DNA of 32,329 nucleotides from Acidobacteriota bacterium (GTDB lineage Bacteria > Acidobacteriota > Vicinamibacteria > Vicinamibacterales > SCN-69-37): positions 1 through 32,329 of the forward strand of contig SYFT01000049.1 of NCBI GenBank assembly GCA_005799825.1, given 5' to 3'. Shown here in pieces: positions 9,306 through 10,364 of the stretch. Made by a program: the position numbers and the translations under genes. Positions within the stretch are counted from its first letter, which is position 1, and the number at the start of each line of letters is the position of its first letter. The notes under the pieces are model-generated. The model saw nothing but the letters and a program-made list of their open reading frames with translations, was not told where the DNA came from and searched no databases.

Positions 9306-10307
9306 TCAAAGTATGCAGTCCAACATCTCCCGAATGCCCTCGGCGAGGTCCTTCTGTCGGTAGCCGAGGTCGCGCTCGGCGGCAGAGCTGTCGAGGGGCC
9401 AGTCGTGGCGGAAGATTTGAAGCGTGGGGTGGGTGAGTTGGGGAGGGTGGCCGGTCAGCCTGGCGCGCCTTTCGTCCAGCCAGGCGGCGGGTGTTCCGGC
9501 CCAGAGGGGCAGCCGGCGGGGCAGGGCCGTGCCGCGCAGGTCGCGCAGAATCTCAAACGGGCGCTGCTGGGGGAGGTTGGGGCCGCCGACCTGATACCCA
9601 GATTCGGGATTCGGGTGGTCAAGGGCTGAGACGTGTGCATTGGCCACCTCATCGACCCACGAGAACGACCAGAGGCGATCGGCGCCGAGCAGTCCGGGCA
9701 GCCGGCCGGCCGTGTGGTCGGCGAACATCCGTCCGATCAGGTTGCCTTCTGACAAGAGGCCCGGCCCATAGATGACCCCGGGGTACATGGAGACGATGGG
9801 GATGCCCTGGCGGCGCGCCTGGTCTGCGACGAAGCGCGCCGCGGCTTTGGTGCGCTGGTAGTCGTTGGCCACCAGCGGGACCGTGTGCCCCGCTGGTGGC
9901 AGCGCCAGAAACGACGAGGTGTAGACGAGGCGGTGGAGCCCGTGCGTCCGCACGGCCTCCACCGCGTGGTGCAGGCCGCCGACGTTGATGTCGTCGAAGT
10001 CGCGTGGGTTCGGGCGCCAGACGCTGACGACGGCGGCGGTGTGGATGAGGGCGTCGCAGCCGCGTGCGGCTGCGACGACCGCGTCGCGGTCGCGCACATC
10101 GCCGAAGATGAAAAAGACATCGGGAGAAAAAACGACGTCGGGTGTCCTTTTGGGGGTGGCAGGCAAAAAGACATCCGACGTCGTTTTTTCTCCCGATGTC
10201 CTTTTCTCGCCGCGCGCGAATACCACCGCCTCATGTCTGCGCCCCACCAGCGCGCGGACAATCGCCTGCCCCAGATACCCCGTGCCGCCCGTCACTAGAA
10301 CCCGCAT
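9306..10307 (-). CDS. NAD(P)-dependent SDR epimerase/dehydratase carrying an inserted palindromic element
   Basis: An extended short-chain dehydrogenase: MRVLVTGGTGYLGQAIVRAL holds the TGGTGYLG nucleotide-binding motif, FGDVRDRDAV follows the second strand, and LIHTAAVVSVW matches 'D.V.H.AA'. ATG 10307 is preferred over an in-frame GTG at 10325 because the Rossmann strand starts there. The expected Y-x3-K appears weakened: VANDYQRTKAAARF contains Y-x3-K (YQRTK), in the right place. Between strand 2 and GDVRD lie about 32 extra residues (ending VVFSPDVFF), encoded by the palindromic element at 10111-10205. The frame stays open, so the protein may tolerate the insertion in a surface loop. The substrate is unknown; these proteins commonly act on sugar nucleotides or sterol-like compounds. 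Confidence 0.85.
   Translation of the reverse strand: MRVLVTGGTGYLGQAIVRALVGRRHEAVVFARGEKRTSGEKTTSDVFLPATPKRTPDVVFSPDVFFIFGDVRDRDAVVAAARGCDALIHTAAVVSVWRPNPRDFDDINVGGLHHAVEAVRTHGLHRLVYTSSFLALPPAGHTVPLVANDYQRTKAAARFVADQARRQGIPIVSMYPGVIYGPGLLSEGNLIGRMFADHTAGRLPGLLGADRLWSFSWVDEVANAHVSALDHPNPESGYQVGGPNLPQQRPFEILRDLRGTALPRRLPLWAGTPAAWLDERRARLTGHPPQLTHPTLQIFRHDWPLDSSAAERDLGYRQKDLAEGIREMLDCIL
10111..10205. repeat. 95-bp palindromic element inserted in frame in a coding gene
   Basis: Two 41-nt arms (10111-10151 and 10165-10205) are inverted copies matching at 38 of 41 positions, with a 13-nt spacer. In the epimerase mRNA two of the three differences become G-U pairs. Each arm is itself bounded by an inverted pair (GACATC...GATGTC or a one-base variant) and contains GACGTC. 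No stop codon occurs in any of the six frames. It encodes about 32 residues of the epimerase. There is no second copy in the window. Confidence 0.85.
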
Positions 10308-10324: not shown

Positions 10325-10364
10325 CTCCAGTTCCTCACTTCCCGATTTCCTTACTTCCCCATTA
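10325..10364 (-). repeat. Degenerate 8-bp-period array (AASTGRGG type), copy C
   Basis: Read on the minus strand: TAATGGGG, AAGTAAGG, AAATCGGG, AAGTGAGG, AACTGGAG. It fills the divergent gap between the epimerase and the rhomboid gene and touches the rhomboid -10 box. Confidence 0.65.

Follow-up and report, generated by a model that had tools for sequence, protein, structure and literature searches.

The window, a stretch of 32,329 nucleotides from an Acidobacteriota genome, carries a gene for an NAD-dependent epimerase of the SDR type on its reverse strand (9306..10307). Translation is assigned to an ATG at 10307, and the open reading frame continues upstream to a GTG at 10325; epimerase orthologues from congeners begin at the Met of the 10307 ATG. 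The product matched Pfam PF01370 (E 3e-26), and orthologues are present in much of the order. Outside the insert described below, dN/dS was 0.13 relative to the closest congener and 0.17-0.21 relative to two others. Judged by these ratios, the gene is under purifying selection and, for that reason, no relic.

A long palindrome lies within this gene. The first-pass annotation had described two 41-nt arms (10111-10151 and 10165-10205), paired at 38 of 41 positions and separated by a 13-nt spacer. This geometry was confirmed, and the arms could be grown by one base outward and one base toward the spacer (10110-10152 and 10164-10206; 40 of 43 positions paired). The whole palindromic insert (10110..10206, without strand assignment) is therefore described as two 43-nt arms around an 11-nt spacer. 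DNA folding of positions 10095-10220 gave -46.7 kcal/mol, compared with -19.6 ± 2.8 in shuffled sequences (z -9.5). The nested words GACATC/GATGTC and the central GACGTC were found as previously described. Likewise, no stop codon was present in any of the six frames across 10111-10205, an openness with a chance probability of ~0.002 among shuffled palindromes and seen in 0 of 20,000 plain shuffles. A search of Rfam returned generic hairpin matches only, far below gathering scores.

At the centre of the insert is an inner element (10129..10187, without strand assignment) consisting of a pair of repeat units, termed family A, and a short spacer. It forms a 59-bp match to other genomic copies, with 19-mer half-sites at 10131-10149 (forward strand) and 10167-10185 (reverse strand). 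The left outer arm (10110..10128, forward strand) resembles the first half of the family A unit (GAAAAAGACATCGGG), while the right outer arm (10188..10206, forward strand) ends in CCCGATGTCCTTTTC and is complementary to the left. The epimerase orthologue of the congener G001 shares these outer arms, but its centre is a different palindrome (family B).

An AlphaFold2 model of the epimerase (mean pLDDT 86) showed a confident Rossmann fold with strands at residues 26-31 and 64-68. Residues 36-60, between strand 2 and strand 3, had pLDDT values below 50 and were unstructured, which makes the insert a disordered surface loop in this model. The model bears out its proposed position, after Rossmann strand 2 and ahead of the GDVRD strand. 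The estimate of ~32 added residues was only partly accurate. While the insert codes for approximately residues 35-66, the protein exceeds most homologues by a net ~23 residues, because native loop residues are missing as well. In the alignment proposed as a check, homologues either lacked the loop or carried a variant loop.

Searching the genome of the window (G000) with the element recovered its 59-bp core at many places. Using the central 19-mer of the family A unit (AAAAAGACGTCGGGTGTCTTTTT) with up to 3 mismatches, we counted 63 half-sites in this genome, and 0 with a reversed-pattern control. These form ~36 elements, mainly inverted pairs with a short spacer. The proposal of a dispersed, many-copy palindromic element was thus upheld. 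Among 74 collected elements, 54 were +- pairs and the remainder were mostly single units. We describe the element as an inverted pair of ~23-bp units. The family A unit (GAAAAAGACGTCGGGTGTCTTTTTC) contains no GTAG foot, and GTAG-type repeats in the genus constitute a separate family.

Sixty related genomes were searched for family A; all are assemblies, mostly of uncultured bacteria. Sites were numerous in the congeners G001 (42), G002 (50), and G006 (28), diverged in G004 (9) and G005 (5), and absent from G003. Few were found outside the genus, with a variant of family A in the family-level relative G013. By this count, family A is largely a repeat of this one genus. Among named relatives, the closest are assemblies of uncultured Acidobacteria, e.g. 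Baikal-deep-G11 (matching G006) and P6-9 (matching G001). At one G001 locus (L081, C119:3487-3533), a family A pair is central to a ~40-bp inverted duplication resembling a gene end.

The first-pass annotation had placed the epimerase copy in frame. Codon-usage tests and translation indicated that ~14 of the 36 G000 elements reside inside genes with the frame kept. The hosts are the epimerase, an ArnT-like glycosyltransferase, gluQ, dnaE2 (two), nagA, an amidohydrolase, queA, apbE, hpnE, a DEAD-box helicase, a meaB-mce fusion, a C-terminal tail (L152), and a multihaem-cytochrome-like protein in which the element follows the signal peptide. Five of these hosts are supported by Pfam domains, which in four cases span the insert; the remaining names were read from translations. 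Across genes, the repeat unit is translated in all three frames. Family C-type elements, nearly all from G004, gave a comparable picture, with 8-10 of 20 in frame within genes.

Several individual loci merit description. In G000, the upstream gene seems to end, and the downstream gene to start, within the spacer of one element (L026, C12:6656-6712), which would provide the stop codon of the former and the ATG of the latter (AGTCGATGAAAAAG). At L130 (C35) of the same genome, meaB is joined to methylmalonyl-CoA epimerase in a single reading frame, and the linker between these two proteins is palindrome-derived in six congeners, involving families A, C, D, and F (L130, L193, L194, L179, L215, and L214). 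The apbE loop that holds a family A unit in G000 contains GTAG-type REPs in G002 (L210) and G004 (L192). Ser/Thr kinases from two genera carry in-frame palindromes in the same loop (HPNIAAIY...ALVMELVEG; L062 and L074 in G005, L071 in G013). A further in-frame repeat type (GTCCAGAGTCCAGAGTCC, encoding GSRVQGP-like peptides) fills loops of some shared hosts, including gluQ in G006 (L201), L004 in G000, and nagA in G011 (L283).

Candidate mobilisers were identified beside the repeats. G001, G002, and G006 each encode one intact Y1_Tnp gene with a family A pair on either side. These RAYT proteins contain an HUH motif (MPNHFH or MPNHFH-like) and the Tyr motif YVERN, and exceed the PF01797 cut-off. 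The only NCBIfam family matched was REP_Tyr_transpos, at 71-75 bits and below its cut-off of 80; a PDB sequence search returned no match at E <= 0.001. The RAYT gene of G004 is bracketed instead by the family C palindrome (AAAATGAGCTCGGAGGCGATTT), which has 78 sites in G004 and 0-3 elsewhere. This same flanking repeat forms the palindrome in the G004 epimerase. Elsewhere in the taxonomic family, RAYTs have still other palindromes on both sides. As different RAYTs are bracketed by different palindromes, each has its own repeat, which agrees with published accounts of REPtrons and TIRtrons (PMC3116915, PMC3733652, PMC6006769). For the family B palindromes (74 units in G006 and 31 in G001), no RAYT flanked by that family was found.

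No family A RAYT was found in the G000 assembly. The sequence adjoining this gene in G006 maps to the extreme ends of G000 contigs C107 and C82, so the G000 copy may lie in an assembly gap. The lone G000 RAYT, on contig C15, was rejected as the family A mobiliser, as its 1.5-kb flanks contain no family A unit; a GGGGGACGGGTGTG repeat lies nearby.

Because the same repeats flank RAYT genes, and a cognate palindrome occupies the epimerase site in G004, we interpret the window insert as a non-autonomous palindromic element (REPIN/TIR type) of a RAYT system, present here as a copy inside a gene. We assign this reading a probability of about 0.82.

Orthologous sites in G001, G002, G004, and G006 contained a palindrome in 27 of 32 cases, a hand tally over the G000 genic loci and the epimerase that includes one intergenic locus (L012). 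At 19 of the 27 occupied sites, the palindrome family differed from that in G000, the alternatives being B (AAAACGACCTCAGAGGTCGTTTT), C, D (GACGTCGGGAGGCTTTT), and the GTAG-type E. Control windows contained stems of at least 14 bp in 3 of 300 cases. None of 7 sites held a palindrome in G003, and one did in G005 (family F). This distribution suggests recurrent insertion of elements into the same tolerant protein loops, which grow longer as a result. The first-pass annotation had suggested that six-frame openness would permit landing in any phase or orientation. The window copy is indeed open, but families B, C, and D contain stops in some frames and still occupy genes. Openness is therefore not a general requirement, and we rejected the idea that it is under selection in the element. 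The comparison yielded neither a precise empty site nor a target signature for insertion.

Alternatively, palindromes could have entered once in the ancestor of the genus, with each species' RAYT family subsequently overwriting the sequence (by hairpin exchange or gene conversion) and with losses in G003 and G005. Some loci favor such a history. The hpnE genes of the sisters G002 and G004 have a common outer stem (GGAAATGA/TCATTTCC) around different cores, and the helicase palindromes of G000 and G002, two genomes that the root separates, have a common outer part (GGAAATGACGTC). Both comparisons point to common ancestry followed by core change. Units at shared sites were also more diverged than those at others (1.38 versus 0.75 mismatches, p 0.015, with groups assigned by hand). 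However, the G004 RAYT forms a distinct branch and is not an orthologue of the family A RAYT, and nagA does not fit simple descent. In trees including rpoB, G003 and G005 grouped with G000/G006/G001, against G002/G004 (support 96/94 to 100/100 in most analyses). Both retain an outgroup-like helix in nagA, which palindrome peptides replace in G000/G006 and in G002/G004. Since the nested G003 and G005 keep the ancestral loop, this site would have been filled at least twice, unless recombination moved the palindrome. Simple ancestral inheritance of all sites is weakened by this locus. We consider a single ancestral entry a credible contender but a doubtful one; independent filling and ancestral sites with changed cores probably both occur.

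Selected functional hairpins, such as terminators, attenuators, or gyrase sites, could also be held at fixed places while their sequence drifts freely. U-rich stems do adjoin gene ends, and sequences do differ at the same sites. This account is nevertheless unlikely, given that the sites lie within enzymes with the frame preserved, that palindromes are missing from G003 and most of G005, and that species-specific repeats match RAYT flanks.

Template switching at replication would instead grow palindromes locally, needing no transposase, with gene conversion making the copies similar. In its favor, stems run on into locus-specific flanks, by a mean of 4.07 compared with 1.43 ± 0.17 in permutations, and six elements showed extensions of at least 8 where 0.19 were expected. 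Local template switching would also yield such lengthening. As an explanation of the whole it is very unlikely, as near-identical units at ~36 unlinked sites, and their exact association with RAYT genes, require dispersal.

For a RAYT-mobilised element, stem extension and nesting together suggest that insertion occurs at hairpin loops. At L063 in G001, a family B pair lies within the spacer of a family A pair. At the epimerase, the common outer arms enclose a family A pair in G000 and a family B palindrome in G001. In the mechanism we envisage, the Y1 HUH transposase would cleave and rejoin the hairpin as single-stranded DNA, a chemistry that passages of PMC6006769 give as established for this enzyme family. 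Copies would be placed preferentially in the loops of pre-existing hairpins. Those that break genes would be purged, so that survivors would sit at tolerant positions (loops, linkers, and termini) and be translated as 15-35 additional, probably disordered residues (KTSGVF...KTPDVF type). Later families may then re-use these tolerant sites or overwrite their palindromes, giving nested palindromes as in the window.

We tentatively propose, at somewhat short of even odds, that permissive loops act as standing landing pads re-used by several RAYT families across the genus, probably through insertion at DNA hairpin loops. If so, the same enzymes would keep gaining and swapping peptides of mobile-element origin, with a transposase thereby driving loop variation in the proteins of free-living bacteria. 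With no mobiliser assigned to the RPE/CGTC class (PMC3733652), palindromes that encode protein have been difficult to account for. The genus described here offers a candidate transposase together with several cognate families, orthologous sites both with and without a palindrome, and graded sister species. With these, comparative and in vitro work can test how targets are chosen, how elements replace one another, and how protein evolution is affected. Annotators should also be aware that many enzymes of this lineage contain loops made up of mobile-element sequence.

The parallel drawn at first with Rickettsia palindromic elements holds for in-frame insertion into unrelated protein genes. Kinship is not established, however, since our elements have a candidate cognate RAYT, while CGTC/RPE repeats are reported without one in the relevant section of PMC3733652; the host is also not an obligate intracellular lineage. 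Membership in the Rickettsia elements proper is highly improbable despite the shared trait of genic in-frame palindromes encoding ~30 residues, as our elements are nearly restricted to one genus among the 60 relatives searched and are RAYT-linked, which that section reports CGTC/RPE repeats not to be.

Closer resemblance is found with REPINs/BIMEs and their RAYTs (the REPtron; Bertels and Rainey 2011, PMC3116915). Both systems comprise inverted doublets in tens of copies, the same repeats on both flanks of a Y1 HUH transposase gene, and one family per RAYT. The elements here differ in lacking a GTAG foot, in having near-palindromic units with poly-A/T ends, and in the ~40% of copies that are genic. 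TIRYT/TIRtrons (Di Nocera 2013, PMC3733652; TnpAREP subclass 2.1, PMC6006769), as portrayed in portions of these papers, are similar in that long inverted repeats, distinct from GTAG REPs, flank RAYT-like genes. Some of their families are dispersed as dimers, and they include a sharply defined Acidobacteria group. The same portions do not describe, for TIR families, the genic frame-preserving residence and same-site turnover seen here.

Intragenic REPs have precedents. Excerpts of PMC3733652 report in-frame dimers of 20-30 residues, dnaE2 included, and, in one case (Xanthomonas recB), different REPs lying at approximately the same site; frame-preserving REPs within tnpAREP genes appear in a section of PMC6006769. 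Within the open-licence literature, we found no description of several RAYT-linked families occupying the same genic sites across a genus, although earlier reports may exist. Compared with the single case in those excerpts, several families as a rule occupy the same site here, at approximately ten loci in four species. Intragenic REPs are thus already known; what is new is that several RAYT families use the same sites recurrently.
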